DNA from: Bacillus sp. FJAT-22090
Lineage (GTDB): Bacteria > Bacillota > Bacilli > Bacillales_A > Planococcaceae
Reading direction: 5' to 3'
Assembly: GCF_001278755.1 (NCBI RefSeq)
Contig: NZ_CP012601.1
Location: 930,001-994,000, forward strand
Length of the DNA stretch: 64,000 nucleotides
Part shown: one piece after another, positions 1 to 63,965 of the stretch
Numbering within the stretch: the first letter of the stretch is position 1
Layout: each line of letters begins with the position of its first letter
The notes under the pieces: model-generated
Told to the model about the DNA's origin: nothing
The model's database searches: none
Seen by the model: only the letters and a program-made list of their open reading frames with translations
Program-made: the position numbers and the translations under genes

Positions 1-153
1 AGCCAGATTGAAATTAAATCATATCTCATAAATCATTTAGAAGAAGCATTGCGACTTATGGTTACAAGATTAAAAAAAGAAAAATATGATGTAAATGAAA
101 CTGAATTATGGACTGACTTTGCAAAAGTAAAAAATGATTTCTTATTCAACTAA
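1..153 (+). CDS. 3' end of a cassette gene (partial)
   Basis: An open frame runs from the window edge for 50 codons to a TAA. The product end is hydrophilic and helical (reads ...EEALRLMVTRLKKEKYD...). The stop codon and last two codons (Phe-Asn) lie inside the following repeat arm, so the recombination site supplies the terminus. The gene is truncated by the window and the family is not recognisable. Confidence 0.6.
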   Translation, partial: SQIEIKSYLINHLEEALRLMVTRLKKEKYDVNETELWTDFAKVKNDFLFN

Positions 154-171
154 CGGGTGCTTTAGTTGAAG
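144..171 (+). repeat. attC-like site, lone compact arm
   Basis: ATTCAAC, core CGGGTGC and TTAGTTGAAG form one 28-bp imperfect palindrome. There is no second arm; a strong terminator follows and then a minus-strand gene. It marks the end of a cassette. Confidence 0.75.
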
Positions 172-189
172 AAGGAAATTTTTTAAAAG

Positions 190-236
190 AGCCTATATCT
201 ATGATTACATTAATCATAGATATAGGCTTTTTTATA
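190..236. terminator. Bidirectional terminator
   Basis: A perfect 18-bp stem (190-207 with 211-228), 3-nt loop CAT, then TTTTTT. It sits between the partial plus-strand gene and the convergent LRR gene and can serve both. Confidence 0.85.
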
Positions 237-305
237 TTTCTGCTATATAAATTTAATCAAAGACCATGGAAACTGTATAATTAAAAAAGAAGTGTAGCCA
301 GACCA

Positions 306-3189: not shown

Positions 3190-3253
3190 GTTAACGGATA
3201 CTTTAGTTAAACTCTTTTTTCTTATTTGAACTAACGGGGCAGTTTAGTTTAAT
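3186..3253 (+). repeat. attC-like site, short type
   Basis: Arm A (GTTAACGGATAC then TTTAGTTAAAC) and arm B (TTGAACTAACGGGGCAG then TTTAGTTTAAT) are separated by only about 14 bp of T-rich DNA. The terminator hairpin seen in other copies is missing. Confidence 0.75.
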
Positions 3254-3672: not shown

Positions 3673-3701
3673 TATGAACTAACGCAGCAGTTTAGTTGAA
3701 C
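3673..3701 (+). repeat. attC-like site, lone arm B
   Basis: ATGAACTAA, core CGCAGCAG, TTTAGTTGAAC. Only the right arm is present between two cassette genes. Confidence 0.75.
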
Positions 3702-4235: not shown

Positions 4236-4322
4236 TTCAACTAACGGGTGCTTTAGTTAATGTTCATGGGTTGCTTAGGCAACTCTTTTTCTTATTGTAC
4301 TAACGCAGCAGTTTAGTTGAAC
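4236..4322 (+). repeat. attC-like site, short type S1
   Basis: ATTCAAC/CGGGTGC arm A, hairpin GTTGC-TTAG-GCAAC followed by TCTTTTTCTT, then arm B with core CGCAGCAG ending GTTGAAC. The outer end matches GTTRRRY exactly. Confidence 0.9.
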
Positions 4323-5359: not shown

Positions 5360-5445
5360 GTTCAACTAACGGGTGCTTTAGCAGAACAGGGCTGTCAGTA
5401 GACAGCCTTTATTGTTATTCAATTAACGGGGCAGTTTAGTTGAAG
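5360..5445 (+). repeat. attC-like site, short type
   Basis: Arm A GTTCAACTAACGGGTGC, a private hairpin GGCTGTC-agta-GACAGCC with T-run, then arm B CAATTAACGGGGCAG ... GTTGAAG. The arms match the family while the hairpin is unrelated in sequence to other copies. Confidence 0.9.
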
Positions 5446-5821: not shown

Positions 5822-5953
5822 TTAAACTAACGAGTGCTTTAGTTAAAATATGACCATCATTTCGTTGGTCTTTTTTTACGTCCAAACATCAAGGAAATTC
5901 GGCAATCCAGTGTGAAATTTTTCACTTAAATTAATGGGGCAGTTTAGTTTAAG
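5822..5953 (+). repeat. attC-like site, long type
   Basis: Outer ends CTTAAAC and GTTTAAG are exact reverse complements. The inner hairpin GACCATCATTTCGTTGGTC is followed by seven T, then the conserved tail (CCAAACATCAAG...TGTGAAAT) and arm B. Confidence 0.9.
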
Positions 5954-6373: not shown

Positions 6374-6507
6374 AATGAACTAATAGGTGCTTTAGTTAAA
6401 CATGACCATCATTTCGAAGGTTTATTTTTACACCCAAAACATCAGGTAGATTTCGGCGTTCCATTGTGGAATGGTACACTTTAACTAACGCAGCAGGTTA
6501 GTTTAAT
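6374..6507 (+). repeat. attC-like site, long type
   Basis: Arm A AATGAACTAATAGGTGC, hairpin region GACCATCATTTCGAAGGTT (stem partly decayed), conserved tail, arm B CGCAGCAG ending GTTTAAT. Confidence 0.85.
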
Positions 6508-6794: not shown

Positions 6795-6796
6795 TT

Positions 6797-6885
6797 AATG
6801 AACAAACAGGTGCTTTACTTGAGATCGTTCAGATACTTAGACGTCTCTTTTTTCTTGTTCAACTAACGCAGCAGGTTAGTTCAAT
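6797..6885 (+). repeat. attC-like site, short type
   Basis: Arm A AATGAACAAACAGGTGC with TTTACTTGAG, weak hairpin AGATACTTAGACGTCT and TTTTTTCTTG, arm B CGCAGCAGG ending GTTCAAT. Confidence 0.85.
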
Positions 6886-7786: not shown

Positions 7787-7920
7787 ATTCAACTAACGGG
7801 TGCTTTAGTTAAACAAGACCATCATTTCGATGGTCTATTTTTACGTCTAAAACATCAAGTAGATATAGTCGATACATTGTGAAATGTTACACTTAAACTA
7901 ACGGTGCAGGTTAGTTCAAT
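7787..7920 (+). repeat. attC-like site, long type
   Basis: ATTCAAC arm A (perfect RYYYAAC), hairpin GACCATCATTTCGATGGTC, T-rich, conserved tail ending TGTTACACTTAAAC, arm B CGGTGCAGG ending GTTCAAT. 134 bp. Confidence 0.92.
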
Positions 7921-7983: not shown

Positions 7984-8457
7984 ATGTCGCAAGATGGAAT
8001 TGTTTTAGTAGTAAGCGTGTCAATTTTTAATGAAGCTGATGTCTTGATTATTAAAGAGAATAAACCTACCGCTGTTGAAAAGTGGAATTTTCCGAGTGGA
8101 CGTATTGAATATGGCGAGGACATTCTCTATTCAGCTCGGAGGGAAGTAAAAGAGGAAACAGGATTGGACGTTAAACTGATTGGGACTACTGGTGTATATA
8201 ATTTTATAAGTAGTACAAACAATCAAGTTATTCTATTTCATTTTATAGGTGAGGTTACCGGAGGTTCTATAAACCTCGAAGAAGATGAAATTTCTGAGAG
8301 TAAGTGGATTAAGGTAAGTGACCTTCTAAAGTTTGAGAATGAAGACTTACGGGAACCATTGGTATTAAAGCAAATAATAAATAATTTATTAAAAAAGAAC
8401 CTATACCCAATTAATATTTATAATGAGCAAGTTTGTGAAAAGTTTCACTTAAACTAA
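7984..8457 (+). CDS. Nudix hydrolase
   Basis: 157 residues with a full Nudix box: Gly39-RIEYG-Glu45 ... Arg53-Glu54-V-K-Glu57-Glu58-T-G-Leu61. These proteins cleave nucleoside diphosphates linked to another group, with Mg bound by the Glu residues. The substrate cannot be read from the sequence. GAGGAG lies 5 bp before the ATG. The last codons (His-Leu-Asn) and the TAA come from the next repeat arm, so the C-terminus is set by the recombination site. A second Nudix cassette lies at 54606. Confidence 0.9.
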   Translation: MSQDGIVLVVSVSIFNEADVLIIKENKPTAVEKWNFPSGRIEYGEDILYSARREVKEETGLDVKLIGTTGVYNFISSTNNQVILFHFIGEVTGGSINLEEDEISESKWIKVSDLLKFENEDLREPLVLKQIINNLLKKNLYPINIYNEQVCEKFHLN

Positions 8458-8512
8458 TGGGTGCTTTAGTTAAAGATTATGGGTTGCTTAGGCGACTCTT
8501 TTTTCTTCTTCA
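8448..8512 (+). repeat. attC-like site, arm A plus S1 hairpin, arm B lost
   Basis: CTTAAACTAATGGGTGC, TTTAGTTAAAG, hairpin GGGTTGCTTAGGCGACTC and T-run. Where arm B should start, the sequence switches to the inverted element at 8504-8618. Confidence 0.75.
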
Positions 8513-8618
8513 ACTCCCATGAAAATTAAAAAATGCTCAAAATCTATAAAATTGCATAACAAAAGAGACTCAGAAATTACTTTTTTAAAAAAAGGCTGAG
8601 CCTTCAGAATGATTATAT
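8504..8618 (-). repeat. 115-bp element, inverted copy of 17802-17916
   Basis: The reverse complement matches 17802-17916 along its length (shared stretches ATTCTGAAGGCTCAGCC, TTATGCAATTTTATAGAT, TTTTTTAATTTTCAT, GAGTTGAAGAAG). The end GTTGAAGAAG resembles a cassette start. The two copies flank about 9.2 kb. Confidence 0.75.
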
Positions 8619-8663
8619 TAAGCTGAAAGTTAAATCAAAGCAACTCCATTCTTGTTAGAATAA

Positions 8664-8820
8664 AGGCAAGGCTGGTGCAATAACCAGAGTAGGATTAATC
8701 TCCCATGAGTGCTACTCGTATAGAGTGCGACAGTCTGTGATGCACCGTGGTCGTTGGAGTCAGACTAACGGATGGGCTCTATGGCACCATAGTTCATCGA
8801 CCTTCTTCGCCAGCCGTATC
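8664..8820. ncRNA. Candidate structured RNA (unassigned)
   Basis: A stretch visibly richer in G+C than its surroundings, with no open frame. Nested complementarity: outer GGCTGG (8670-8675) with CCAGCC (8810-8815), AGTCTG (8732-8737) with CAGACT (8761-8766), CTATGG (8779-8784) with CCATAG (8787-8792), and local CTGGT/ACCAG at 8672-8687. It could be a leftover non-coding end of an IS110-type element (bridge-RNA-like) or another structured RNA. No transposase is nearby. Confidence 0.35.
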
Positions 8821-8882
8821 AATCTATACCCGCTCTGAAACATTTTCATTCTCTGTGGTGCAGCTTTTTTTGGCTGCATGGA

Positions 8883-8908
8883 TGGCTAACGGGGCAGTTT
8901 AGTTGATG
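8883..8908 (+). repeat. attC-like lone arm B with hairpin
   Basis: GGCTAACGGGGCAG, TTTAGTTGAT. Immediately upstream is hairpin TGCAGC-ttttttg-GCTGCA (8859-8878). It is the right remnant of a site split from 8448-8512. Confidence 0.65.
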
Positions 8909-12365: not shown

Positions 12366-12494
12366 TATTAATTGGTGCTTTAGTTAAATATGACCACATT
12401 TCGATGGTCTATTTTTTTATCTGAAACATCAAGTAGACATCAGAAATCCATTGTGAAATGTTACACTTAAACTAACGAAGCAGTTTAGTTGAAT
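12366..12494 (+). repeat. attC-like site, long type
   Basis: Arm A degenerate (TATTAATTGGTGC, TTTAGTTAAAT), hairpin ACCACATTTCGATGGT with T7, conserved tail, arm B CGAAGCAG ending GTTGAAT. Confidence 0.85.
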
Positions 12495-15343: not shown

Positions 15344-15444
15344 CTGAATATAATGTCTAACTTTTTGGGGTCACTTCAAGAAGGATTAACGTCTTTTTTG
15401 TTAAATTGTAGAATTGTATAACTAAAGGAGCAGGTTAGTTTAAT

Positions 15445-18499: not shown

Positions 18500-18633
18500 A
18501 TTCAACTAACTGATGCTTTAGTTAAACAAGACCATCATTTCGATGGTCTATTCTTATGTCCAGGTTATCAAGTAGATTTCGGCGATTCATTTTGAAATGT
18601 TACACTTAAACTAACGAAGCAGTTTAGTTGAAC
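18500..18633 (+). repeat. attC-like site, long type
   Basis: ATTCAACTAACTGATGC, hairpin GACCATCATTTCGATGGTC, conserved tail, arm B CGAAGCAG ending GTTGAAC. Confidence 0.92.
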
Positions 18634-19451: not shown

Positions 19452-19590
19452 GTTCAACTGATAATTTAAAAAATTGTTATAAATCATCTCTTAGTTTTTC
19501 TTAGTGGTGTTTTTTTATTGGATATTCATGTTAAAGTTACTATATATTGTGAAGGGTTGCACTTAAACTAACGGGGCAGTTTAGTTGAAC
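19452..19590 (+). repeat. attC-like site, long but divergent
   Basis: Arm A worn (GTTCAACTGATAATTTAAA), interior unlike the standard long type except the end TTGTGAAGGGTTGCACTT, arm B TTAAACTAACGGGGCAG ... GTTGAAC perfect. Confidence 0.7.
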
Positions 19591-20373: not shown

Positions 20374-20403
20374 TTTTGAACTAACGAAGCAGGTTAGTTG
20401 AAT
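20374..20403 (+). repeat. attC-like lone arm B
   Basis: TTTTTGAACTAACGAAGCAGG, TTAGTTGAAT. A possible worn arm A (TTAACTTAACTAAGCGGG) lies about 120 bp upstream. Confidence 0.75.
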
Positions 20404-21043: not shown

Positions 21044-21131
21044 CTTCAACTACCGGTGCTTTAGTTAAAGTTCATGGGTTGCTTAGGAAACTCTTTTTTC
21101 TTATTGAACTAACGTAGCAGGTTAGTTGAAG
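21044..21131 (+). repeat. attC-like site, short type S1
   Basis: CTTCAACTACCGGTGC, hairpin GGGTTGCTTAGGAAACTC with T6, arm B CGTAGCAGG ending GTTGAAG; outer ends are reverse complements. Confidence 0.9.
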
Positions 21132-21824: not shown

Positions 21825-21960
21825 GTTCAACTAACGGGTGCTTTAGTTAAACAAGACCATCATAATTCGGTGGTCTATTTTTACGTCCAAAACGTCCAGT
21901 AGACTTTGGTGAACCATTGTGAAATATTACACTTAAACTAACGGGGCAGGTTAGTTCAAT
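21825..21960 (+). repeat. attC-like site, long type
   Basis: GTTCAACTAACGGGTGC, hairpin GACCATCATAATTCGGTGGTC, conserved tail, arm B CGGGGCAGG ending GTTCAAT. Confidence 0.92.
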
Positions 21961-22388: not shown

Positions 22389-22416
22389 TTAAACTAACGC
22401 GGCAGTTTAGTTTAAT
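22389..22416 (+). repeat. attC-like lone arm B
   Basis: TTAAACTAACGCGGCAG, TTTAGTTTAAT, 11 bp after the preceding stop. Confidence 0.8.
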
Positions 22417-23259: not shown

Positions 23260-23393
23260 ATTCAACTAACGGGTGCTTTAGTTAAACAAAACCAACATTT
23301 CGATGGTATGTTTTTATGTCCAAAACATCAAGTAGATTTCGGCGATCCATTGTGAAATGTTACACTTAAACTAACGAAGCAGGTTAGTTGAAG
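23260..23393 (+). repeat. attC-like site, long type
   Basis: ATTCAACTAACGGGTGC, hairpin partly decayed (ACCAACATTTCGATGGTA), conserved tail intact, arm B CGAAGCAGG ending GTTGAAG. Confidence 0.9.
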
Positions 23394-23589: not shown

Positions 23590-23676
23590 ATTGAACTATG
23601 GGTGCTTTAGTTGAACAAGTAGCTGCCTATAAGGGTATCTTTTTCTTATTGAACAAACGGGGCAGGTTAGTTCAAC
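23590..23676 (+). repeat. attC-like site, short type S3
   Basis: ATTGAACTATGGGTGC, TTTAGTTGAAC, hairpin GCTGCCTATAAGGGTATC with T5, arm B CAAACGGGGCAGG ending GTTCAAC. Confidence 0.9.
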
Positions 23677-24295: not shown

Positions 24296-24374
24296 ATTCA
24301 ACTAACGGGTGCTTTACTTCAAGAAGGAGTAAAGCCTCTTTTCTTATTGAACTAACGGGGCAGTTTAGTTTAAG
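24296..24374 (+). repeat. attC-like site, short type S2
   Basis: ATTCAACTAACGGGTGC merges into hairpin GCTTTACT-tcaagaagg-AGTAAAGC followed by TCTTTTCTT; arm B CGGGGCAG ending GTTTAAG. Confidence 0.9.
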
Positions 24375-24917: not shown

Positions 24918-25003
24918 ATTCAGCTAACGGGTGCTTTAGTTAAAGACCAAGGGTTGTTTAGGCAGCCTCTTTTTTTTCTACTAACGAAGCAGTTTAGTTC
25001 AAT
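24918..25003 (+). repeat. attC-like site, short type S1
   Basis: ATTCAGCTAACGGGTGC, hairpin-like GGGTTGTTTAGGCAGCCTC with T8, arm B CGAAGCAG ending GTTCAAT. The same interior recurs at 45649. Confidence 0.9.
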
Positions 25004-25764: not shown

Positions 25765-25843
25765 GTTCAGCTAACGGTGTGCTTCACTTCAAGAAGAAGT
25801 AAAGCTTTTTTCTTATTGAACTAACGAAGCAGGTTAGTTGAAG
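25765..25843 (+). repeat. attC-like site, short type S2
   Basis: GTTCAGCTAACGGTGTGC, hairpin CTTCACTTCAAGAAGAAGTAAAG with T6, arm B CGAAGCAGG ending GTTGAAG. Last site before the 4.3-kb interruption. Confidence 0.88.
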
Positions 25844-28495: not shown

Positions 28496-29180
28496 TATTT
28501 TCCCCCAAAAAAATGTAAGTTTTCGTATGACTTTGATTGCACTTCCAAGTTTAATGGTAGCAATTTTGTTTTATTATTTTATTAACTAGGAGGCTTTGAT
28601 CCAAGAAGGATTAAGTAACTAAATCAAACAAGTTTAACTCAGTAAATTAAGTATGATAAAGCCTGTTTAATCAAGGCTTTACGTAATATTAAAATCAACT
28701 CAGTTAAATAAAATTAACTCAAAAAAATAATTATGTGAGCAAATGTGTGAGCTTTTTGGAAAGCAAGTGATCATCTTTTAGAATATAGCTCATATTGAAA
28801 TGGATAGGTTTTCGTGATTGGTACGTTCATAACTGTAATTAGAATTAAACAAAAATTTTTAAAATGCTTAGTTATGTCTATTTTTGATGGTTGGTATTGA
28901 ATTTTAATAAAGGACTTTTTCATATGGTTTTTATTTATATAGAGTAGTGAGGTTTTTAAATTAAGGTGGGGTTGTTATAAGAAGGATTAACGCAAAAACG
29001 AGTGAAAATCGACCAAAAATGAAGAAATAAATGAAGATAGGGTAATTTTCAATCGAATTGAACCTGAATAAAAGGGTTTTTGAAGAAACTGATGAAACAA
29101 ATAGGAGTGTTGATTCTAGAAAAGGAATTAACCCTCTTTTTTTGAAATTATTGTACTAATGGGTTTTTTATTCAATTAGA
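28496..29180. other. AT-rich intergenic region without genes
   Basis: 685 bp with no credible gene. It holds two decayed copies of the terminator motif GTTGATCC...GGATTAAC (28594-28615 and 29109-29132, the latter followed by CCCTCTTTTTTT), and a third partial at about 28980. It could be a graveyard of cassette ends. Confidence 0.5.
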
Positions 29181-29210
29181 GCAACGTCTTTTAAGACGTT
29201 GCTACTTTTA
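29181..29210. terminator. Terminator downstream of the recombinase
   Basis: GCAACGTC-ttttaa-GACGTTGC with TA-CTTTTA on one side and a T-poor minus side; 4 bp beyond the recombinase stop region. Confidence 0.7.
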
Positions 29211-29213: not shown

Positions 29214-30059
29214 TTAAAAGTACTTTTGATAATACTCTTTCCTTAGCCTCCCACTCAATTGAGCGTAGATCCTGGTGGTTTCACTTTTCTCATGCCCCAT
29301 AAGACTTTGTATGACTTCAATAGGAGCTCCATTATTCAACAAATGAGTTGCATAGCTGTGCCTAAGTTGGTGTGGATGAATCTCTTTATTAATTTCAGCA
29401 CGATTGGAGATCCGCTTGATGATGTATCGCATTTGGGCGACACTCATTTTATGTGGCTGCCTTGCTGTGACAAAGATAGCAGGATTATGGTCATTCCGGC
29501 TTTCCATATAACGTTTAAGCCATATGTCGCAACGTGTATTAAAATAAACTTCCCTTTCCTTATCACCTTTTCCTCTAACAATCGCGGATTGATTGGACCA
29601 ATTAATATGGTTCTTTTCTAACGCAACAATTTCTCCAATTCGACAACCGGTAGAAAACATGAATTCGAAAATCGCTTTTTCCATTAGGGAATGACATGAT
29701 TCACGAAGGTGTTCAATCTCCCTTTCGGTTAAATACTTGGGTATCCGCTTCCCTACTTTGAATTCTTTAATTTTGGAAGTTGGATTCTTACTCAGGTATC
29801 CTTCTTCATGAGACCAACGAAAAAATGATTTCATAAAGCGGATACGATGTGCTAGACTGGCTGGTTTTAAATGCTTGCCGGATTTTGCAAGATAGTCCTT
29901 CAGTTGATTTGTATCCAGCATTTCCATCTCTACATCCTTAAAATAACCAATTAGTAGCAAATACTGTAACTGGTAGGCCTTCAACGTTTGCGGCGAAAAG
30001 CCCTCTATTCTTTTATCAGCTTCAAACGAAGCCCATGCATTTGACAGTAACAATTCCAT
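29214..30059 (-). CDS. Tyrosine recombinase, candidate cassette integrase
   Basis: 281 residues. A SAM-like N-terminal DNA-binding domain (residues 5-95: SPQTLKAYQLQYLLLIGYF, LAHRIRFMKSFFRWSHEEGY) and a catalytic domain with Arg140 (STGCRIGEI), Lys164 region (RGKGDKER), His230 and Arg233 (HPHQLRHSYATHLL), His256 (LMGHEKSETT) and nucleophile Tyr265. Arg140 to Arg233 is 93 residues, Xer-like and about 40 shorter than class 1 IntI, so the IntI-specific helix between these boxes is absent. AGGGGG abuts the ATG; a TTG two codons later has better spacing. It is divergent from the plus-strand cassettes with a single simple site just upstream. Inference: the enzyme that moves cassettes here. Confidence 0.9.
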   Translation of the reverse strand: MELLLSNAWASFEADKRIEGFSPQTLKAYQLQYLLLIGYFKDVEMEMLDTNQLKDYLAKSGKHLKPASLAHRIRFMKSFFRWSHEEGYLSKNPTSKIKEFKVGKRIPKYLTEREIEHLRESCHSLMEKAIFEFMFSTGCRIGEIVALEKNHINWSNQSAIVRGKGDKEREVYFNTRCDIWLKRYMESRNDHNPAIFVTARQPHKMSVAQMRYIIKRISNRAEINKEIHPHQLRHSYATHLLNNGAPIEVIQSLMGHEKSETTRIYAQLSGRLRKEYYQKYF

Positions 30060-30125
30060 TCCCCCTAAAATAGTAATATTAAAAGGAGTATTGCCAACTT
30101 AATAGAATTATAGACATAGGGTGTA

Positions 30126-30152
30126 TTTTTACTAACGACGGGTTAGTTGAAG
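30126..30152 (+). repeat. Candidate attI-like simple site
   Basis: TTTTTACTAACGACGGG, TTAGTTGAAG: a single arm of B type with core CGACGGG, about 65 bp upstream of the divergent recombinase start and 53 bp before the first cassette gene. No inverted partner arm nearby, as expected for an attI rather than an attC. Confidence 0.65.
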
Positions 30153-30204: not shown

Positions 30205-30855
30205 ATGCAGAAAAAAGGAACTTTATTATTAACGACATTAACTATTATTGTTTTGTTATCAGGGTGTATAGATACAGTGGAAAACAGTGATAAATTGGAT
30301 GAAAAAAACGCTTCGAAACAACTTATTGAAGAGAAAGAAATTCAGATAAGGGAACTAGAAGAGAAGAATGAGGAACTTCAAGATACATTGTCTAGTATTG
30401 AAACGGATTTTAAATATACGAAAGAGGAAGCCGATTATTATAATCAATTGATTGATGACCTTATAAGTGATTATAGTGAAACTCAATTAAAAGATTTAGC
30501 AAAAAAGTTATGGGATTATGAGTTAGAAGTAAATGGATTAGCTATACCGAGAGACGGTATAGTAGAAGTACAGAACAACACAATCGAAATTTCTTTGATA
30601 CAAAGGCAACCAGCTTATGTTGTATTACCAGATGATATTTTTATGCAAGGAAAAATTAGTGGCAATTATAATGAACATTTAAAATTTAACACTAATCCTT
30701 CTGAAACATATTTCACTGATGGAACAGTTGTTACGGGGGTACATCACAAATTTATCGATGTGGAAAAAGGTGCAACTATTTCATTCTCTATTACAGAAGA
30801 GTTAAAGATTAGTTTGGGTTTAGACACCTCGGAGATTACGATTAAAAACAGTTAA
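30205..30855 (+). CDS. Coiled-coil lipoprotein, first cassette after the attI-like site
   Basis: 216 residues. Lipobox LLSGC at Cys21, a coiled coil over about 38-75 (LIEEKEIQIRELEEKNEELQ), then a beta-rich domain with IEISLIQRQPAYVVLPDDIF and GTVVTGVHHKFIDVEKGATI.. features. Anchored on the outer membrane face. Unknown role. AGGGAG precedes the ATG. Being next to the attI-like site it would be the most recently inserted cassette in an integron model, although the site after it is decayed. Confidence 0.75.
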   Translation: MQKKGTLLLTTLTIIVLLSGCIDTVENSDKLDEKNASKQLIEEKEIQIRELEEKNEELQDTLSSIETDFKYTKEEADYYNQLIDDLISDYSETQLKDLAKKLWDYELEVNGLAIPRDGIVEVQNNTIEISLIQRQPAYVVLPDDIFMQGKISGNYNEHLKFNTNPSETYFTDGTVVTGVHHKFIDVEKGATISFSITEELKISLGLDTSEITIKNS

Positions 30856-30887
30856 ATAATTCATCAAATTAATTTCTTATGCAAACG

Positions 30888-31013
30888 GGTAACATATTTA
30901 AAGGGTTCGGATAAACTTTTGGTGTTTAGGATACATCAAATTTCGATGGGATCACACGAATTTTTACGCCCATAACATCAAGAAGATTTCGGAAATTTAC
31001 TATGTCAACTTGC
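30888..31013 (+). repeat. Decayed long-type attC-like site
   Basis: Order of motifs kept but worn: CAAACGGGT, ACATCAAATTTCGATGG, ATTTTTACGCCCATAACATC, AAGAAGATTTCGG. Arm B is unrecognisable. Confidence 0.6.
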
Positions 31014-31015
31014 TC

Positions 31016-31150
31016 TTAATTATCATTTTCCTTCTTCTCTTGGTCAGATAAACTCCTAAATGCCTTAATTTGAAGACCTTTCGATTCTTAACCTGCTGAC
31101 TTATTTAAGGTGTTCCCACAAGCCGAAACAATCGCTAATGCAAGTAGACA
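31016..31150 (-). pseudogene. Remnant of a small lipoprotein gene
   Basis: On minus a 45-codon frame reads CLLALAIVSACGNTLNKSAG, a TAA, then GLQIKAFRSLSDQEKKEND. A lipobox-like LAIVSAC is present. No start codon with ribosome site; broken by the stop. Confidence 0.4.
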
Positions 31151-31205
31151 CTATAACTGATGTGATTTAGAGTGAAAAATCGTAGATTTAGAAGGTAGTG
31201 ATTAG

Positions 31206-31697
31206 GTGAAAAAATTAGGAATAATCATTTTAGTTTTGTTATTTGTTATAGGCTGTTCAAATGAAGATGAAACGAAGCAAGTCGTTTCTAAACACGAGAA
31301 AAAGATAGAAGAGCAACAAAAGGAAATCCAGAAATTAGAAGACGAGTTACAACAAGTAAAAACAGAATATAGCGTGTTTTTACAGCAAGCTGATAACAAG
31401 TCCAGGGCTATTATGCGTTTAATTGCAAACGGTAAATTTGAAGAGTTAAAGAAAGAATACCAGGTTGAGTTTGAAGTAACAGATGACGCATTAGATTTTG
31501 GAGTACCAGAATCAAATATTCCATTTCGAATCGATCTAGCTAGACATCCTATGTTTGTATCATCCTTTAATAAACACTCTGAAGCCAAAGAAATCAGTTA
31601 TTATATTGATAATCTTGAGACAGAGGAAAGAACTTTAATAACGATGCATTTTGATAAAGATGGTACATTCAATTTTATTTTTTTAGGAGATAGATAA
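31206..31697 (+). CDS. Coiled-coil lipoprotein
   Basis: 163 residues from GTG. Lipobox VIGC at Cys17, coiled coil 25-60 (KHEKKIEEQQKEIQKLEDEL), then a domain ending EERTLITMHFDKDGTFNFIF. Overall plan matches the lipoprotein at 30205 (signal, coiled coil, beta domain), though the sequences differ. Surface-anchored; role unknown. No repeat separates it from the next gene. Confidence 0.75.
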   Translation: MKKLGIIILVLLFVIGCSNEDETKQVVSKHEKKIEEQQKEIQKLEDELQQVKTEYSVFLQQADNKSRAIMRLIANGKFEELKKEYQVEFEVTDDALDFGVPESNIPFRIDLARHPMFVSSFNKHSEAKEISYYIDNLETEERTLITMHFDKDGTFNFIFLGDR

Positions 31698-31705
31698 GTG
31701 GAATA

Positions 31706-31740
31706 CAGAATACCGGATGCACCCGATATTCTGCATTTTT
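31706..31740 (+). terminator. Terminator
   Basis: CAGAATACCGG-atgca-CCCGATATTCTG then CATTTTT, after the coiled-coil lipoprotein. Confidence 0.75.
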
Positions 31741-31806
31741 AATTTTTGATGTCTGTATCGGTACGAAAAATAACATATTTTAAAAAAAATGAAAAGTGGG
31801 TTATTG

Positions 31807-32787
31807 ATGAAAAAAAGTTACTTATTGTTGTTCCTGTTTTTAGTATTAGTGGGATGTCAAAATGAAATCGACGTTTCCAAACAGAATGAAGATCACTCAC
31901 AGAATGACATTCAGGAAGAAGTTGAAACAGTAGAATACACAAAAATTCCTGCTTCCCTTCTCAATGAAATTTCTCAGCAAATCGGTATTCCTTCCGAAGA
32001 AGTTACAGAGGATGACTTATTAAAAGTAAAATCTATGAATATTACTAGTCAAAATAATGATGATGTGACTGCTCTATCTGAAATGAAAAATCTAGAAAGC
32101 CTTTACGTGTCTGCCCCTATTGATGTTAGCTCTATAAGTGAATTAAGCAACATTAAATATTTGTATCTCATGAATATGAACAACCCAATAACAAAGTTTG
32201 ATTTTTTAAGATCACATGAACAATTAAACACTTTAGATTTACAAAATACTGGGCTTGAGGATTTGAAAGAGTTTCCTACGCTTAAAAAAATTAAAAACCT
32301 ATATTTAGTTGATAATCAGATAAAAGATTTAGTTCCATTAGGGAAGTTGATTTCGCTTGAAGAACTAGATATCACCAACAATCAAATTACATCACTTTCT
32401 CCACTGGAAAACCTTGAAAATCTCCATAGTCTTTCAGTAAACAATAACCCGATTACAGATGCTACACCAATTGGAAGTTTGAGCTCTCTTCTTTTTCTTT
32501 CTATGAATGGAATACCTATAGATTCGATTGAATTCGTGCAAGAGTTGAATAAACTAGAGCGTTTGCAAATTACAGATACAGAGGTATCTGATTTATCAGT
32601 TTTAGAGAATTTAAAGAGTCTAAGCTATTTAGATATTCGCAATACAAATGTGACCTCAATTCAAGCACTGAGCAAACTAGAGAATTTGCATATTTTACTG
32701 CTTAATAAAGATAAAGTTAAGGATTGGAAGCTACTAGAGGACAAAGAAGAATTACGCATATCTGAAACAGTTATATTCGCGGAGTAA
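31807..32787 (+). CDS. Leucine-rich-repeat lipoprotein
   Basis: 326 residues. Lipobox VLVGC at Cys17, short linker, then internalin-like LRRs of about 22 residues from 80 to 310 (LNTLDLQNTGLEDLKEFPTL, KNLYLVDNQIKDLVPLGKL, LEELDITNNQITSLSPLENL). Extracellular, membrane-anchored protein-binding solenoid. Ligand unknown. It is smaller than, and not a copy of, the secreted LRR protein at 306. The start at 31807 puts the signal peptide at the N-terminus. Confidence 0.85.
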   Translation: MKKSYLLLFLFLVLVGCQNEIDVSKQNEDHSQNDIQEEVETVEYTKIPASLLNEISQQIGIPSEEVTEDDLLKVKSMNITSQNNDDVTALSEMKNLESLYVSAPIDVSSISELSNIKYLYLMNMNNPITKFDFLRSHEQLNTLDLQNTGLEDLKEFPTLKKIKNLYLVDNQIKDLVPLGKLISLEELDITNNQITSLSPLENLENLHSLSVNNNPITDATPIGSLSSLLFLSMNGIPIDSIEFVQELNKLERLQITDTEVSDLSVLENLKSLSYLDIRNTNVTSIQALSKLENLHILLLNKDKVKDWKLLEDKEELRISETVIFAE

Positions 32788-32883: not shown

Positions 32884-32971
32884 ATTTAACTAACGGGTGC
32901 TTTATTTAAACAATTGGCTGCCTGTAAAGGTAGCTTTTTCTTATTGAACTAACGGGGCAGGTTAGTTGAAG
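32884..32971 (+). repeat. attC-like site, short type S3
   Basis: ATTTAACTAACGGGTGC, TTTATTTAAAC, hairpin GGCTGCCTGTAAAGGTAGC with T5, arm B CGGGGCAGG ending GTTGAAG. Confidence 0.9.
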
Positions 32972-33516: not shown

Positions 33517-33556
33517 CTTCAACTAACGGGTGTTTTAGCTAAACAAGACCATCATT
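33517..33556 (+). repeat. attC-like site, truncated (arm A only)
   Basis: CTTCAACTAACGGGTG, TTTTAGCTAAACAAGACC, ATCATTT, then the sequence breaks into an unrelated terminator and the sigma-factor genes. Confidence 0.75.
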
Positions 33557-35424: not shown

Positions 35425-35512
35425 ATTCAACTAACGGGTGCTTTAGCAGAGCAAGAGGCTGCCTTGAGAGGTAGCTTTTTCTTATTGAACTAACGAAGCA
35501 GTTTAGTTCAAT
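35425..35512 (+). repeat. attC-like site, short type S3
   Basis: ATTCAACTAACGGGTGC, TTTAGCAGAGC, hairpin GGCTGCCTTGAGAGGTAGC with T5, arm B CGAAGCAG ending GTTCAAT. Confidence 0.9.
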
Positions 35513-36115: not shown

Positions 36116-36249
36116 CTTCAACTAACGGGTGCCTTAGTTAAAAATGACCATCATTTCGATGGTCTATTTTTACGTCCAAAACTACAAGTAGGTTTCGGCA
36201 ATACAATGTGAATTGTTACACTTAAACTAACGCAGCAGTTTAGTTGAAT
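36116..36249 (+). repeat. attC-like site, long type
   Basis: CTTCAACTAACGGGTGC, hairpin GACCATCATTTCGATGGTC, conserved tail, arm B CGCAGCAG ending GTTGAAT. Confidence 0.92.
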
Positions 36250-37817: not shown

Positions 37818-37896
37818 ACTTAAGCTAACGGGTGCTTTACTTCAAGAAGGAGTAAAGCCTTTTTCTTATTGAACTAAAGGGGCAGGTTAGTTCAAT
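37818..37896 (+). repeat. attC-like site, short type S2
   Basis: ACTTAAGCTAACGGGTGC, hairpin GCTTTACT...AGTAAAGC with T5, arm B TAAAGGGGCAGG ending GTTCAAT. A worn extra arm (TTACTAAAGGGGCAAC) lies 55 bp upstream. Confidence 0.9.
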
Positions 37897-38505: not shown

Positions 38506-38584
38506 ATTCAACTAACGGGTGCTTTACTTCAAGAAGGAGTAAAGCCTTTTTTCTTATTGAACTAAAGCGGCAGTTTAGTTGAAG
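38506..38584 (+). repeat. attC-like site, short type S2
   Basis: ATTCAACTAACGGGTGC, hairpin GCTTTACT...AGTAAAGC with T6, arm B TAAAGCGGCAG ending GTTGAAG. Confidence 0.9.
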
Positions 38585-38768: not shown

Positions 38769-38797
38769 GTAAAACTAACGAAGCAGTTTAGTTGAAA
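38769..38797 (+). repeat. attC-like lone arm B
   Basis: GTAAAACTAACGAAGCAG, TTTAGTTGAAA. Confidence 0.75.
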
Positions 38798-39063: not shown

Positions 39064-39196
39064 TTTTTCAAATGGGTGCTTTAGTTAAACAAGACCATCA
39101 CTTGGATGGTCTATTTTTATGTCCAATACATCAAGTAGGTTTCGGCGATCCATTGTGAAATGTTACACTTAAACTAACGCGGCAGGTTAGTTGAAC
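39064..39196 (+). repeat. attC-like site, long type
   Basis: Arm A worn at its outer end (TTTTTCAAATGGGTGC), hairpin GACCATCACTTGGATGGTC, conserved tail, arm B CGCGGCAGG ending GTTGAAC. Confidence 0.88.
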
Positions 39197-39549: not shown

Positions 39550-39681
39550 GTTCAACTAACGGGTGCTTTAGTTAAACAAGACCATCATTTCGATGGTCTA
39601 TTTTTATGTCCAAAACATCAAGTAGATTTCGGCAATCAATTGTGAAATGTTACATTTAAACTAACAAGACAGGTTACTAAA
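39550..39681 (+). repeat. attC-like site, long type with damaged arm B
   Basis: GTTCAACTAACGGGTGC, hairpin GACCATCATTTCGATGGTC, conserved tail; arm B reads TAACAAGACAGGTTACTAAA so the GTT end is lost. An additional S3-like fragment (TTTAGTTAAAG, GGTAGCTTTTTC) lies just upstream. Confidence 0.85.
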
Positions 39682-40212: not shown

Positions 40213-40291
40213 GTTAAACTAACGGGTGCTTTACTTCAGGAAGGAGTAAAGACTTTTTTCTTATTGAAGTAACGGGGCAGTTTAGTTCAAT
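40213..40291 (+). repeat. attC-like site, short type S2
   Basis: GTTAAACTAACGGGTGC, hairpin GCTTTACTTCAGGAAGGAGT-AAAG with T6, arm B GTAACGGGGCAG ending GTTCAAT. Confidence 0.88.
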
Positions 40292-44207: not shown

Positions 44208-44376
44208 ACAGGGGCTTTAGTTGAATAAGCGTCCCTTTTCTTGTTCAACTAACGGGTGCTTTAGTTAAACAAGACCATCATGTCGATGGTCTATTTTTTT
44301 ATCCAAAATTTCAAGTAGATCTCAGAAATACATTGTGAAATGTTACACTTAAACTAACGAAGCAGGTTAGTTCAAT
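44208..44376 (+). repeat. attC-like tandem: compact arm plus long-type site
   Basis: A compact arm CTTCAACTACAGGGGC, TTTAGTTGAAT (44208-44227) lies directly before a full long site: GTTCAACTAACGGGTGC, hairpin GACCATCATGTCGATGGTC, conserved tail, arm B CGAAGCAGG ending GTTCAAT (44243-44376). Looks like an empty or collapsed cassette. Confidence 0.88.
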
Positions 44377-45648: not shown

Positions 45649-45734
45649 CTTAAACTAAGTTGTGCTTTAGTTAAAGACCAAGGGTTGTTTAGGCAGCCTC
45701 TTTTTTTTCAACTAACGCAGCAGGTTAGTTCAAT
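45649..45734 (+). repeat. attC-like site, short type S1
   Basis: CTTAAACTAAGTTGTGC, TTTAGTTAAAG, interior ACCAAGGGTTGTTTAGGCAG identical to that at 24918, T8, arm B CGCAGCAGG ending GTTCAAT. Confidence 0.88.
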
Positions 45735-47748: not shown

Positions 47749-47777
47749 ATTCAACTAACGGGGCAGTTTAGTTGAAA
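47749..47777 (+). repeat. attC-like lone arm
   Basis: ATTCAACTAACGGGGCAG, TTTAGTTGAAA: outer left end as in arm A, core as in arm B. Confidence 0.8.
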
Positions 47778-48249: not shown

Positions 48250-48329
48250 CTTCAGCTAACGGGTGCTTTACTTCAAGAAGGAGTAAAGCCTTTTCTTCTT
48301 ATTGAACTAACGAATCATGTTAGTTTAAG
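48250..48329 (+). repeat. attC-like site, short type S2
   Basis: CTTCAGCTAACGGGTGC, hairpin GCTTTACT...AGTAAAGC, TTTTCTTC, arm B CGAATCATG ending GTTTAAG. Confidence 0.88.
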
Positions 48330-48993: not shown

Positions 48994-49128
48994 CTTCAAT
49001 CTAACGGGTGCTCTAGTTAAACAAGACCATCAGTTTGATGGTCTATTTCTTTATCCAAAAAATCAAGTAGATCTAAGAAATCCATTGTGAAATGTTACAC
49101 TAAAACTAACGCAGCAGTTTAGTATAAC
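48994..49128 (+). repeat. attC-like site, long type
   Basis: CTTCAATCTAACGGGTGC, hairpin GACCATCAGTTTGATGGTC, conserved tail, arm B CGCAGCAG ending GTATAAC. Confidence 0.9.
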
Positions 49129-49178
49129 AAGCAAAATTAACAATAATAAAATAGATCTTGTTTTCAAGGAGGAAAAAC

Positions 49179-50147: not shown

Positions 50148-50282
50148 CTTCAGCTAACGGGTGCTTTAGTTAAACAAGATCATCATTTTGATGATCTATT
50201 TTTTTTATCCAAAACATCAAGCAGATCTCGGAAATCCATTGTGAAATGTTACACTTAAACTAACGGGGCAGGTTAGTTGAAG
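50148..50282 (+). repeat. attC-like site, long type
   Basis: CTTCAGCTAACGGGTGC, hairpin GATCATCATTTTGATGATC (compensated changes versus the usual GACC...GGTC), conserved tail, arm B CGGGGCAGG ending GTTGAAG. Confidence 0.92.
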
Positions 50283-53473: not shown

Positions 53474-53586
53474 GTTAAACATGACCATCATTTCGATGGT
53501 CTATTTCTACGTTTAAAACATCGAGTGGATTTCAGCGACCCGTTGTGAAATGTTACACTTAAACTAACGGAGCTGTTTAGTTGAAC
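53474..53586 (+). repeat. attC-like site, long type, left end truncated
   Basis: Starts inside arm A (GAAGTTAAACATGACC), hairpin GACCATCATTTCGATGGTC, conserved tail, arm B CGGAGCTG ending GTTGAAC. The A core CGGGTGC is missing. Confidence 0.85.
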
Positions 53587-54456: not shown

Positions 54457-54544
54457 CTTAAACTAACGGGTGCTTTAGTTAAACAAGGAGCTGCCTGTAT
54501 GGGTAGCTTTTTCTTATTGAACTAACGCAGCAGGCTAGTTGAAG
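54457..54544 (+). repeat. attC-like site, short type S3
   Basis: CTTAAACTAACGGGTGC, TTTAGTTAAAC, hairpin GCTGCCTGTATGGGTAGC with T5, arm B CGCAGCAGGC, TAGTTGAAG. Confidence 0.9.
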
Positions 54545-55062: not shown

Positions 55063-55091
55063 GTTCAACTAACGGGTGCTTTAGTTGAATA
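55063..55091 (+). repeat. attC-like site, lone compact arm
   Basis: GTTCAACTAACGGGTGC, TTTAGTTGAATA: same compact form as 144-171 and, like it, followed by a strong terminator and a minus-strand gene. Confidence 0.85.
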
Positions 55092-55747: not shown

Positions 55748-55896
55748 ATGAAAAGAATTGGTTTTGGGAGTTATATTGGTAGCATGTTTCGGAAAAAAGT
55801 AGGACAGCTTCAATTATTAGTAGTAACGAAAACAAAGGGTTTGGCGGCTTAGATATAGAAAATGCATTAAGTCTGAAAAATATTTTATTCAACTAA
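55748..55896 (+). pseudogene. Broken small lipoprotein gene
   Basis: GGGGAGG precedes ATG. Reading with frame changes gives KELVLGVILVACFGKK (lipobox VAC), then SRTASIISSNENKGFGGLDI and ENALSLKNILFN. The last codons and the stop lie in the next arm A. At least two frameshifts, so inactive. Confidence 0.55.
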
Positions 55897-55954
55897 CGGG
55901 TGCTTTACTTCAATAAGGAGTAGAGCCTTTTACTAACGGGCAGGTCGGGTGAAT
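55887..55954 (+). repeat. attC-like site, short type S2, worn
   Basis: ATTCAACTAACGGGTGC, hairpin GCTTTACT-tcaataagg-AGTAGAGC, arm B shortened to ACTAACGGGCAGG, TCGGGTGAAT. Confidence 0.8.
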
Positions 55955-56455: not shown

Positions 56456-56589
56456 CTTAGACTAACGGGTGCTTTAGCAAAACATGGCCATCATTTCGAT
56501 GGTCTAATTTTATGTCCAAAACATTAAGTTGATATCAGATATGCATTGTGAAATGTTACACTTAAACTAAAGGGGCAGGTTAGTTGAAC
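56456..56589 (+). repeat. attC-like site, long type
   Basis: CTTAGACTAACGGGTGC, hairpin GGCCATCATTTCGATGGTC, conserved tail, arm B TAAAGGGGCAGG ending GTTGAAC. Confidence 0.9.
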
Positions 56590-57111: not shown

Positions 57112-57185
57112 AAAAAACACCCGTTATTCAAATGAACTGCCCCGTAAATGTTAGACACTAAACTAACATTTGCGGGGTGTTTTTT

Positions 57186-57707: not shown

Positions 57708-57736
57708 TTTTTGAACTAAAGGCTGAATTTGATGTC

Positions 57737-58546: not shown

Positions 58547-58809
58547 GCTATTTGTCTAACTTTATTGGGTCAGTTCAAAATAACGGGTGCTTTAGTTAAA
58601 CATGACCATTATTTCGATGGTCTATTTTTATGTACAGAACAACAATTAGACTTCGGAGACCCATTGTGAAATGTTACACTTAAACTAACGCAGCAGTTTA
58701 GTTGAATAAGAGGTATATATATATAATTTGTCGAAATAGTTATAACTTGAGGATGATTCAATCAAATTTGAAGGAGAGTTATAGACATTAATGAAGGGAG
58801 AAGCCTAGC

Positions 58810-59456: not shown

Positions 59457-59642
59457 ATTCAACTAACGGGTGCTTTAGTTAAATAAATTAAGTCGACTTT
59501 TAGTTGGCTTTTTTTGTTTTCTAGAACATAGCGTGTAATAGCAACACCTTATAGGTGGTGTTTTTTTATGTTGTATAGTTTAGAAAATTATGGTAATGTT
59601 GAAATCGATTTTGTAATTTAACTAACTACTCGGTAGTTGAAA
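59457..59642 (+). repeat. attC-like site, atypical
   Basis: ATTCAACTAACGGGTGC, TTTAGTTAAAT, hairpin AGTCGACTTTTAGTTGGCT with T7, a second terminator AACACC-ttat-AGGTGGTGTT with T6 (59543-59570), and a worn arm B TTTAACTAACTACTCGG, TAGTTGAAA. Longer than other sites because it holds two terminators. Confidence 0.75.
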
Positions 59643-60229: not shown

Positions 60230-60258
60230 CTTCAACTAACGCACCAGTTTAGTTCAAG
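60230..60258 (+). repeat. attC-like lone arm
   Basis: CTTCAACTAACGCACCAG, TTTAGTTCAAG. Confidence 0.8.
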
Positions 60259-62825: not shown

Positions 62826-62865
62826 AAGGTGAATGAAAGTAACTTAATTTACTTTCATCCACCTT
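62826..62865. terminator. Terminator
   Basis: AAGGTGAATGAAAGT-aacttaattt-ACTTTCATCCACCTT; serves the convergent MscS gene. Confidence 0.75.
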
Positions 62866-62883
62866 ATCTTTAAAAAGTATTTT

Positions 62884-63702
62884 TTAATGGCTTGTGTTGA
62901 GGCTCTCTCCCATCATCAAGTCGTTCTTGTAGGCAGCCATCGCCAGTTCATACCTCACTTTTTTGCTCATTTCAACGAAATCCGCTTCCTTCACAAGACC
63001 TGATAATGAATACCGGTGACCCCTGAAATCCACGTTCAGTTCGGTGATTTGGTTGAATTTGAAACTCTCCACGGGAACGCCGTTCTCATCCTTCAACAGG
63101 TATTCACCGTATTTCTCGTTGCATGTTTGTGCTACTTCCTCCATCACCTTGAAAGCATCGTCCGGATTTTGCCTATAGTTGAGGATAAGGCTTTCGTTCA
63201 CCCGGCGCATTCCCCGGTTCCCGTTCTGAAGTTCCGAGATGTTGCTATAGGAGACCGAATAGAGATATCCGTCATACTGGCGGATCTTTAGGTGGCGCAT
63301 GCTGATTTCCTCGATTTTTCCCTGACGGTTCCCATTGATAATGACATAATCCCCGTGATGGATCTGGCGCTCAAACAAGTAGGTCAACCCCATAATGTAA
63401 TCGCGGATGATATGCTGAAGTATCAATGCCAAGGCACCTGCCAACACGACCGAACCAGTGACAAGCTTTGCCAGGTCGAAGAAATGGCTAAGCACATAAA
63501 TAAAGAAGAACACCAGTCCCAATACCTTTGTCACCTGGTTGACAAAATGCATCAATGTCTCTTCTCGCTTTTCATCCAAGATGCTTGTTTTTTCAAAGAA
63601 AAGCTTGATGGATTTGCGGATCAAATAAACCGTGAGTGTAATCAGCAGAGCCACCGTTAAAATTTTTACGGGCAACTGCTGGGACAGTCCCAAGAAAAAC
63701 AT
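62884..63702 (-). CDS. MscS-family mechanosensitive channel
   Basis: 272 residues. Three spans, the pore helix VVLAGALALILQHIIRDYIM, then the beta domain YLFERQIHHGDYVIINGNRQGKIEEISMRH (split here; MscS signature) and C-terminal cytosolic cage. Opens under membrane tension to release solutes. ATG at 63702 with GGGGGT upstream is preferred over a TTG 15 bp earlier. Higher G+C than the cassettes and therefore likely resident DNA. Confidence 0.9.
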   Translation of the reverse strand: MFFLGLSQQLPVKILTVALLITLTVYLIRKSIKLFFEKTSILDEKREETLMHFVNQVTKVLGLVFFFIYVLSHFFDLAKLVTGSVVLAGALALILQHIIRDYIMGLTYLFERQIHHGDYVIINGNRQGKIEEISMRHLKIRQYDGYLYSVSYSNISELQNGNRGMRRVNESLILNYRQNPDDAFKVMEEVAQTCNEKYGEYLLKDENGVPVESFKFNQITELNVDFRGHRYSLSGLVKEADFVEMSKKVRYELAMAAYKNDLMMGESLNTSH

Positions 63703-63936
63703 CCTATCAACCCCCAATTTTTTACACTATACCAAAGGAATACGAATAAGGAGAAAACCTTCCTTTCCAACAAACCTTAAAGATAGCATGGTTCCATTAA
63801 AAAGAGAATCCCTCTTAGTACTTCTTGAGGAACGATAATATTGCCAATAATTTGTTTTCCGCTGATGAATGGATATTAAAAGATACAGAGATAAAGATAA
63901 ATGAGAGAATTGAACCTGTGCTACCCTTTTTTCGTT

Positions 63937-63965
63937 CTTATTGGACTCCCTCAGTTTAGTTGAAG
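63937..63965 (+). repeat. attC-like arm B, worn
   Basis: TCTTATTGGACTCCCTCAG, TTTAGTTGAAG. The right end of an old site: the array resumes at the window edge. 63720-63936 holds no gene except a 16-codon scrap (MVPLKRESLLVLLEER). Confidence 0.6.

Follow-up and report, generated by a model that had tools for sequence, protein, structure and literature searches.

What kind of genetic system lays down small accessory genes one after another, each followed by the same two-armed repeat, in the chromosome of a member of Bacillales? The question is raised by a stretch of 64,000 nucleotides (nt) from Bacillus sp. FJAT-22090, hereafter the window, which spans C1:930001–994000 (C1 denotes the organism's own chromosome coordinates) of a 4.21-Mb chromosome assembled as a single contig. 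A first-pass annotation of the window had described a huge integron-like gene-cassette array whose repeats bear the structural marks of integron attC sites. Our comparisons indicate that the stretch is very probably part of a gene-capture array that has its own tyrosine recombinase, of the XerA/XerCD type, to run it. Such an array would resemble an integron in its working and would be a distinct system, with two crossover sites per repeat.

A one-orientation array of two-armed repeats

Two related arms recur in the window, with the consensus sequences TTATTCAACTAACGGGTGCTTTAGTTAAACAAG for arm A and TTNAACTAACGNNGCAGKTTAGTTGAANAAG for arm B. Arm A consists of two inverted 10-bp half-sites, TTSAACTAAM, flanking the 6-nt centre GGGTGC, whereas arm B has the same half-sites around a 7-nt centre, GNNGCAG. 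Both strands were scanned with mismatch limits of 2, 3 and 5, and five block-shuffled plus strands served as the control. At the strictest limit 73 arms lie on the plus strand (31 A, 42 B) and none on the minus strand, against 0–1 in the shuffled sequences; with up to three mismatches there are 81 (35 A, 46 B) and one, respectively, against 1–3; and with up to five, 82 of the 83 matches are on the plus strand and one is on the minus strand. The repeat is real and far above chance, and its arms are in direct, never inverted, orientation (73/73 at the strictest limit). Complete repeats, in which an A arm is followed by a B arm within a span of at most 160 nt, number 29, the remainder being single or degenerate arms, and the first-pass estimate of about 50 copies or remnants is a fair one. 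Fourteen copies in the window belong to a long repeat type (family D1), with 60–80% identity across 175 nt. The window has no match in Rfam at the gathering threshold, and a tRNA scan of it found none; hence, there is no tRNA-anchored island within the window.

The array had been placed between positions 144 and 63965 of the window, but it runs past both window ends and is approximately 165 kb long as a whole. On its great size, its single orientation and its integron-like character in a Bacillales chromosome, the first-pass annotation was right. Genome-wide, with at most two mismatches, the A core occurs 188 times in the forward and 66 times in the reverse direction (3 and 3 for the reversed pattern), and the B core 208 and 56 times (0 and 0). 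Among the places listed, sites group mainly at about 837–1002 kb (plus strand), 1265–1305 kb (minus strand), 3.44–3.48 Mb and 3.92–3.93 Mb, with a few further sites at 0.36 and 0.79 Mb.

The integrase gene and its primary site

A search of the genome with the Phage_integrase profile gave 19 matches, which include three close paralogues: one in the window (29214..30059, minus strand), one at C1:1283040–1283882 (plus) and a truncated one at C1:1001880–1002593 (minus). The window gene encodes a 281-amino-acid (aa) tyrosine recombinase (P0001) and reads against the array. Between its start and the attI-like site lies a leader of TTATTGCCAACTTAATAGAATTATAGACATA-type sequence (30060..30131), which is conserved in near relatives; the site itself is a single B-type arm, CTAACGACGGGTTAG (30132..30146, plus), that begins 73 nt upstream of the integrase start. 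Past the 3' end of the gene, a degenerate A-type arm followed by a hairpin, AGCAACGTC..GACGTTGCT, was recognized by eye (29156..29203, plus). With this degenerate A arm, the integrase occupies an A-to-B spacer position. The first gene module beyond attI holds three open reading frames (ORFs; 30206..32787, plus) and is closed by an A-spacer-B repeat (32890..32965, plus). The first-pass annotation had missed both the integrase with its attI-like arm, at 29.2–30.15 kb, and the part that each arm plays as a crossover site, which is described below.

The layout recurs in relatives, whose integrases fall into clade 1 and a second group. We displayed 68 of 78 loci, leaving out 10 with partial integrases, and left 21 of the 78 out of the arm-flank count. 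Among 39 clade-1 loci, with at most four mismatches per arm, arm B lies 5' of the integrase in 33, always at most 180 nt from its start, and arm A lies 3' in 29, with both present in 25; the chance of such a match per flank is 0.048 for B and 0.015 for A. Clade-1 relatives have the same arrangement of leader and B arm with differing sequence beyond the arm, and their sites are on the minus strand only, on both sides of the integrase. The second group comprises 18 loci picked by an identity of 48–72% (L064–L074, L076, L084, L090, L094, L098, L101 and L102), in which sites have mostly the opposite orientation relative to the integrase; in the tree, seven of them form one clade and L064, L067 and L072 branch apart. 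All 71 plus-strand sites lie in second-group loci, as do six minus-strand sites, in L065. The totals around integrases are 208 minus and 51 plus sites upstream and 166 minus and 20 plus sites downstream. At the same mismatch limit, arm A is found 5' in 11 of the 18 loci, arm B 3' in eight, and both in six. The second group seems from this pattern to use the other arm as attI, with the other polarity.

As to the kind of recombinase, the window integrase has its highest scores with the Xer models, foremost 219.9 bits with the XerA-type NCBIfam model NF040815 (cut-off 220), but all XerA, XerC and XerD models remain under their cut-offs, the XerD model TIGR02225 (204 bits, cut-off 329.6) and the XerC model TIGR02224 (200.1 bits, cut-off 335.15) by far. 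The integron integrase model, TIGR02249, gives 88.3 bits against a cut-off of 265, and none of the 19 genomes of the genus has a protein above it. The best solved relatives by sequence are 4a8e (XerC-like), 1a0p (XerD) and 5hxy (XerA); the match to IntI4 (2a3v) spans 69 residues. In an alignment of seven proteins (A1), the window integrase is 26–27% identical to XerC/D and 22% to IntI1, and residues R140, K164, H230, R233, H256 and Y265 are invariant, which we take to be the catalytic R-K-H-R-H-Y of tyrosine recombinases. In this alignment IntI1 has a stretch of 34 aa that is absent from the window integrase, from L069 and L106 and from XerC/D. The missing stretch is presumably the extra domain specific to IntI, which a passage of the IntegronFinder 2.0 survey treats as a defining feature of integron integrases (PMC9024848). 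In a tree of 53 rows, 42 integrases form one clade (100/100) near XerC/D, with IntI1 outside. For this tree 48 loci were translated and eight with interrupted or short frames were left out; its deep joins are on long branches, are unsure and are not relied on. Collectively, these comparisons point to a XerA/XerCD-like recombinase and away from IntI.

Breakpoints inside both arms

The first-pass annotation had set identical gene order and content among strains against its own reading. What is found in relatives is the same genes next to different neighbours, with identity breaking inside the arms, and this combination points to a recombining cassette array. Arm B was studied in 880 copies from this genome and its relatives, as pairs sharing one flank only, identical surroundings being counted once. 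Fifteen of the 880 copies, with an intron start inside the arm or following an element that ends in TGG, were removed, and the pattern was unchanged on recount. Among 24 pairs with the same downstream and unrelated upstream sequence (at least 95% identity), position −3 agrees in six, and positions 12, 19 and 22 agree in 19, 20 and 21. Among 22 pairs with the same upstream and unrelated downstream sequence at the same identity, nine of which are attI-leader pairs, position −3 agrees in 21 and positions 12, 19 and 22 in seven, seven and eight. This switch in agreement places the exchange in arm B between about positions 4 and 12, round GNNGCAG.

In arm A, pairs were required to share a gene end at 90% identity or more over at least 150 nt, spacers less than 60% identical were counted as different, and pairs after the TGG element were left out. 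On these terms the spacer behind arm A differs in 20 of the 24 pairs, with gene ends up to 99.8% identical over 506 nt, and these 20 include copies within the organism's own chromosome (98.4% over 506 nt and 98.2% over 503 nt). A looser count (at least 120 nt, spacers below 80% different, TGG pairs kept) gives 41 of 51. Position by position, 12 pairs with the same gene end (at least 95%) agree at −3 in 11 cases and at 15, 18 and 21 in five, one and one; 12 pairs with the same spacer and next gene but unrelated upstream sequence, integrase spacers being set aside, agree at −3 in four and at 15 and 18 in 11 and 10. Compared in this way, both arm A and arm B are crossover points.

The two N bases in the centre of arm B follow neither flank: they agree in 4/24 of the same-downstream and 8/22 of the same-upstream pairs (chance 0.173). 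Where both flanks are homologous they are kept (4/4, and 5/5 at 90%). In an unfiltered set of B arms, defined by A or T at positions 1–3 and one of five pairs at positions 9–10, the pairs behave alike (n = 26 and 24; NN agreeing in 5/26 and 8/24). If NN followed the upstream flank at a rate of 0.9, agreement in at most 8 of 22 would have a probability of 1.5e-9, and for the downstream flank agreement in at most 4 of 24 one of 7e-17; thus, a single crossover point is disfavoured. By contrast, a mixed duplex resolved at random predicts about 0.38 for the same-upstream set, and 8/22 fits this value (p 0.53). The reassortment of these bases suggests a staggered exchange of both strands, unlike the single-strand reaction of IntI.

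Turnover is also visible as shorter and longer versions of one junction, for which we have 21 triples. In five of them both flanks extend for 200 nt or more and no intron is present; these amount to three comparisons, all at attI, namely L029 and G135 versus L062 (2509 bp more), L062 versus L038 (495 bp) and L063 versus G136 (1941 or 6555 bp). Five of the 21 triples, and some of the same-downstream pairs before filtering, had depended on a group II intron or on the TGG-ending element that abuts arms. Group II introns (Rfam RF02005) begin inside B arms, at CTAACGCAGCAG|GTGTGCGG, in L038 (8233–8468, minus), L036 (582–818, minus) and L101 (6052–6290, plus), and the same start motif, as a motif only, is present in A arms of L063 and L039. 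The arms or the terminators may be an insertion target of these introns.

Gene modules and spacers

Module statistics were drawn from ten array stretches including the window, with B-to-A segments kept at 150–6000 nt. There are 236 such segments (median 618 nt), 188 of which hold an ORF of at least 80 aa, on the strand of the sites in 165; this agrees with the first-pass description of mostly one small plus-strand gene between repeats. The 237 A-to-B segments have a median of 45 nt, and 190 of them are at most 140 nt long. A terminator-like hairpin in the direction of the genes is found in 96 of these 190 short spacers, against 0–1 in letter-shuffled ones and 8/236 at gene-module ends. A scan of 36–56 kb gave 22 terminator-like places against 8.9 expected (sd 3.4); judging by coordinates, about 15 of the 22 fall in spacers. 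In the same interval promoter-like places show no excess over chance (86 against 89.8 expected). The terminator-like nature of the spacers argues against read-through from a common promoter (Pc). In the main array, neighbouring arms follow one another as BA 100 times and AB 99 times, against 37 BB and 11 AA; the exceptions may be lost or degenerate arms.

Of the 108 ORFs listed, 50 were scanned with Pfam (E 0.001), and a family was assigned to 32 and none to 18. The families include NUDIX, GNAT and arylamine acetyltransferases, ECF sigma factors, SUKH, DUF2199, DUF3221 and DUF3885, and furthermore a beta-lactamase fold, cupin, MFS, a two-component pair and leucine-rich repeats. The cassette content is that of an accessory-gene profile.

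Distribution among genomes and plasmids

The integrase (E ≤1e-60) is present in 72 of 261 genomes of the order and in 15 of 19 of the genus; in a draw across the phylum it is found in 8 of 398 genomes, this one included. Among the best 80 of 98 matches, the named relatives are Psychrobacillus, Lysinibacillus, Sporosarcina, Paenisporosarcina, Solibacillus, Viridibacillus, Neobacillus and Peribacillus. B sites (at most one mismatch) occur in 135 of the 261 genomes of the order, and 24 of the 28 genomes with at least 30 of them have an integrase at least 75% identical (Fisher p 1.8e-19). The 46 genomes of genus g13 have no integrase match, and two of them have one site each. For distant integrases (40–43% identical), no arm-like repeat was found in the surrounding 20 kb in two of four cases (G600 and G640). 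Viral contigs gave no match to any integrase peptide pattern.

Several plasmids carry parts of the system. The 266-kb plasmid pSP10-266k of Sporosarcina psychrophila (L113) has, at 15–22 kb, a 94% identical integrase and several arms near mercury-resistance genes, so the platform itself can be plasmid-borne. On a Paenisporosarcina antarctica plasmid (L109, 11218–12750), both arm types lie 0.5–2 kb from an annotated Hachiman defence gene. A qacH-tetR gene pair is found on plasmids of Priestia, Paenibacillus urinalis and Enterococcus faecalis (L107 1904–3088, L108 6023–7207 and L110 5023–6206), where it has an A arm on one side and on the other a B-like arm whose centre is 8 nt long, and is 99.7% identical across 1.4 kb; according to the record listing, two Listeria plasmids carry the same site. 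The disinfectant-efflux gene qacH may derive from such an array. The shared 1.4 kb extends some 100–130 nt past the arms, which indicates that the last move was no arm-to-arm exchange.

Proposed mechanism and alternative explanations

In the mechanism that we propose, each repeat would supply two core recombination sites in the same orientation, A recombining with A and B with B. The array would be a chain in which gene modules (B to A) alternate with spacer modules (A to B), and since the spacers are mostly terminator-like hairpins, a gene would bring its coding unit and borrow a terminator. The integrase gene itself would sit in a spacer slot, with an A arm on one side and a B arm on the other. 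In clade 1, the B arm beside the integrase start would serve as attI, where gene-plus-spacer units would enter as circles. Sequence comparison shows the sites, the integrase, the position of attI, the breakpoints in arms A and B, the short and long attI junctions and the reassortment of the N bases; from these we infer that the integrase carries out the exchange, with both strands cut at the two borders of the 7-nt overlap, that the modules pass through a circular intermediate and that the hairpins terminate transcription.

A number of observations weigh against this mechanism. The centre of the window attI has 5 nt instead of the usual 7 of GNNGCAG, and the 3' A arm is broken up; moreover, the attI of the second integrase copy is damaged and the third integrase is truncated at the N-terminus. 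The window attI copy, and with it the platform of this genome, may be impaired or partly dead. Four of the 28 site-rich genomes (G076, G133, G140 and G150, two of them in this genus) have no integrase match, and 48 of the 72 genomes with the integrase fall short of 30 B sites. Some genomes have a few sites that lie scattered one by one, for example at 10 places in G027. The first-pass annotation had named random occurrence over the genome as the sign of a mistaken reading; in the organism's own genome the sites are grouped and far above the control. A group II intron or a short similarity between spacers underlies the remaining 16 of the 21 junction triples. At 98% identity, NN agrees with the downstream flank in 3/8 pairs, a small number but above chance (4/12 in the other set), and the counts at position 4 of arm B are equivocal (18/24 and 17/22, against a chance of 0.60). 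Finally, orphan arms are common, as the BB and AA transitions attest, only 96 of the 190 short spacers pass the terminator scan, and 38 do so on the other strand as well.

Could the array be a true but divergent chromosomal integron, or superintegron, with IntI, attI and attC sites folded as single strands? We regard this as unlikely. The likeness to chromosomal integrons, such as the superintegrons of Vibrio, is considerable: a dedicated tyrosine recombinase reads away from the array with a primary site beside its start and, from genome to genome, differing genes behind that site, and a long, large array in one orientation strings together small accessory genes with a two-armed repeat after each. 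Both an attI adjoining the integrase and mobile gene cassettes are integron features recognized here by sequence comparison. Moreover, the arms harbour group II introns, and some intron classes are likewise found at attC. When 65 sites were folded on both strands, expected A–B pairs averaged 11.3 on the top and 8.5 on the bottom strand, but near-palindromic arms pair anyway, and we did not use the result as evidence. The attC ends RYYYAAC and GTTRRRY, to which the first-pass annotation had fitted the repeats, suit them weakly, the left end in 12, the right in seven and both in two of the 29 complete repeats of the window. In 54 cassettes, the outer arm sequences show no covariation in either pairing. 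A test of attC circles in these cassettes, comparing the start of each with its own end, found 299 complementary matches out of 486 against 297 in shuffled sequences, and the test was thus dismissed as support for attC folding; comparison with the linear neighbour likewise gave no signal (304 and 304). Against an integron stand also the low TIGR02249 scores and the missing IntI-type stretch of the recombinase, crossovers in both arms where an integron has a single crossover point in the right-hand box, spacers exchanged independently of genes, an integrase that rides in a spacer slot, and overlap bases that reassort and are tied to neither side. What survives of the earlier identification is the layout; that the repeats are attC sites is not supported, in view of their ends, the lack of covariation, a recombinase that is not IntI and the two-arm crossovers. 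'Integron-like' is an analogy and not a membership, most of the membership tests that were run having come out negative.

It is very unlikely that the host XerC/XerD acts at dif-like arms, as in Acinetobacter plasmid dif (pdif) modules, with the integrase a bystander. According to PMC13141974, pdif modules are of alternating kinds that are added in pairs, and they share with the arms here Xer-type cores, 6-nt centres and two alternating module kinds. The 6–7-nt centres of our sites, the alternation of modules and the lack of the integrase, at E 1e-60, from 13 of the 48 genomes that have 10 or more sites would all suit such a mechanism. However, the integrase lies within an A-to-B slot with its start beside attI, both arms flanking it in 25 of 39 clade-1 loci, and its strong co-occurrence with the sites favours a dedicated enzyme. 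XerC/D are near-universal, yet genus g13 is without the integrase and nearly without sites. Furthermore, dif modules need inverse neighbouring sites, whereas the arms here are direct; the integrase is encoded in the array, the two site types differ in their centres, the main array is chromosomal and exceeds 100 kb, and one module kind is terminator-like. A third alternative, in which no site-specific system exists and RecA-dependent homologous recombination acts on dispersed terminator repeats of the bcr type or akin to miniature inverted-repeat transposable elements, is highly improbable. The long repeat type, alike over 175 nt in its 14 copies, would offer homology for it, and the repeats are intergenic, terminator-like and in some genomes scattered singly. 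But homologous exchange usually needs tracts longer than 16–17 nt, and the breakpoints lie inside arms of just this length with differing neighbours; in addition, the sites are clustered in one orientation with gene modules between them, and a recombinase is linked to them.

Sites along the window

The sites listed here are all on the plus strand. A single A arm (150..165) is followed by A-spacer-B repeats at 3191..3247, 4241..4316, 5366..5439, 5827..5947, 6380..6501, 6803..6879 and 7793..7914, with a single B arm at 3679..3695. Behind the B arm of the repeat at 5827 lies a sequence that L044 has after a different repeat (91% over 214 nt), and the same holds for the repeat at 6803 with respect to L061 (93% over 500 nt); what precedes the A arm at 7793 is found again in L061, joined there to another spacer (90% over 502 nt). 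At 8454..8902 an A arm is followed by a B arm 416 nt later. A noncoding element ending in GCTGCATGGATGG directly precedes CTAACG arms of both types in several genomes and, in the window, at 8880–8902. A repeat with a degenerate A arm follows (12368..12488), then a single B arm (15422..15438), a repeat (18506..18627) and single B arms at 19568..19584 and 20381..20397; the sequence behind the last has an 88% match over 300 nt elsewhere in this array, near C1:885.4 kb, where it follows another repeat. The B arm at 21109..21125 has a degenerate A arm at about 21048. The repeat at 21831..21954 is preceded by a DUF3885 gene (21170–21811), a copy of which at about 3.44 Mb of the same chromosome, 98.2% identical over 503 nt, has another spacer. 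Next come a single B arm (22394..22410), a repeat (23266..23387), a B arm with a degenerate A arm at about 23594 (23654..23670), a repeat of the short spacer type (24302..24368) and a repeat at 24924..24997. The last site detected before the integrase region is a B arm with a degenerate A arm upstream (25821..25837).

Beyond the first gene module after attI there are a single A arm (33523..33538), a repeat (35431..35506) and a run of repeats with terminator-like spacers at 36122..36243, 37825..37890, 38512..38578, 39069..39190, 39556..39677, 40219..40285, 44249..44370 (of the long type, within the reference copy of family D1), 45655..45728, 48256..48323, 49001..49122 and 50154..50276, with single B arms at 38775..38791 and 47755..47771. 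The 500 nt after the B arm of the repeat at 50154, which overlap an ORF at 50439–51389 (minus), recur in L096 behind a different repeat (97%). A single B arm (53564..53580) precedes the repeat at 54463..54538, whose upstream sequence, before arm A, recurs in L096 with a different spacer (96% over 506 nt). The remaining sites are single A arms at 55069..55084 and 59463..59478, an A arm with a damaged B arm (55893..55908), repeats at 56462..56583 and 58580..58701, and a single B arm (60236..60252), the last arm detected in the window. Two related IS3-like elements are inserted in the array (13938–15343 and 57177–58546), and between two sites a 305-aa ORF covers 114-nt tandem repeats (49158–50075).

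Known systems and implications

Besides integrons and pdif modules, two further systems invite comparison. Integrases of the Tn916/CTnDOT type exchange strands over a short overlap that needs no match and leave a mixed junction, as appears to be the case here, but they move one large element, whereas here many small modules share a family of sites. The Bacillus cereus repeats bcr1–bcr18 are, like ours, intergenic folded repeats in Bacillales, and they are not known to border gene modules. Searches of the open-licence literature gave no title or opening of an abstract that describes such arrays; most subscription journals and all preprints lie outside it, and an earlier description is therefore possible. 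The IntegronFinder 2.0 survey of complete genomes reports one complete integron in Firmicutes, in Limnochorda pilosa, and a few attC clusters (PMC9024848), and a review lists Firmicutes among the integron-bearing phyla (PMC8618304). The portions of PMC11089894 and PMC12690207 consulted have nothing on integrons of Bacillales.

A wider reading, for and against which we find the balance even, is that of a separately evolved Bacillales platform in which genes and terminators are two interchangeable kinds of part and two site types are read from opposite ends by two integrase groups. In clade 1 arm B would be attI and genes would point away from the integrase; in the second group, which is mostly some 62% identical and includes Peribacillus, Cytobacillus and Robertmurraya among others, arm A would take that role and genes would point towards the integrase, and coding and terminator modules would be reassorted combinatorially across genera. 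The gene-capture system as such would be an independent invention of integron logic, built from different parts, in many Bacillaceae and Caryophanaceae, and searches based on IntI and attC are likely to miss such arrays. It would offer a natural comparison for what a gene-capture platform needs in the way of recombinase, primary site and polarity. It would also supply many unknown accessory genes, and environmental genes could pass through it onto plasmids. Finally, the system bears on the old puzzle of how unrelated genes acquire the same site, as a crossover in arm A can join a gene to a repeat-borne terminator.

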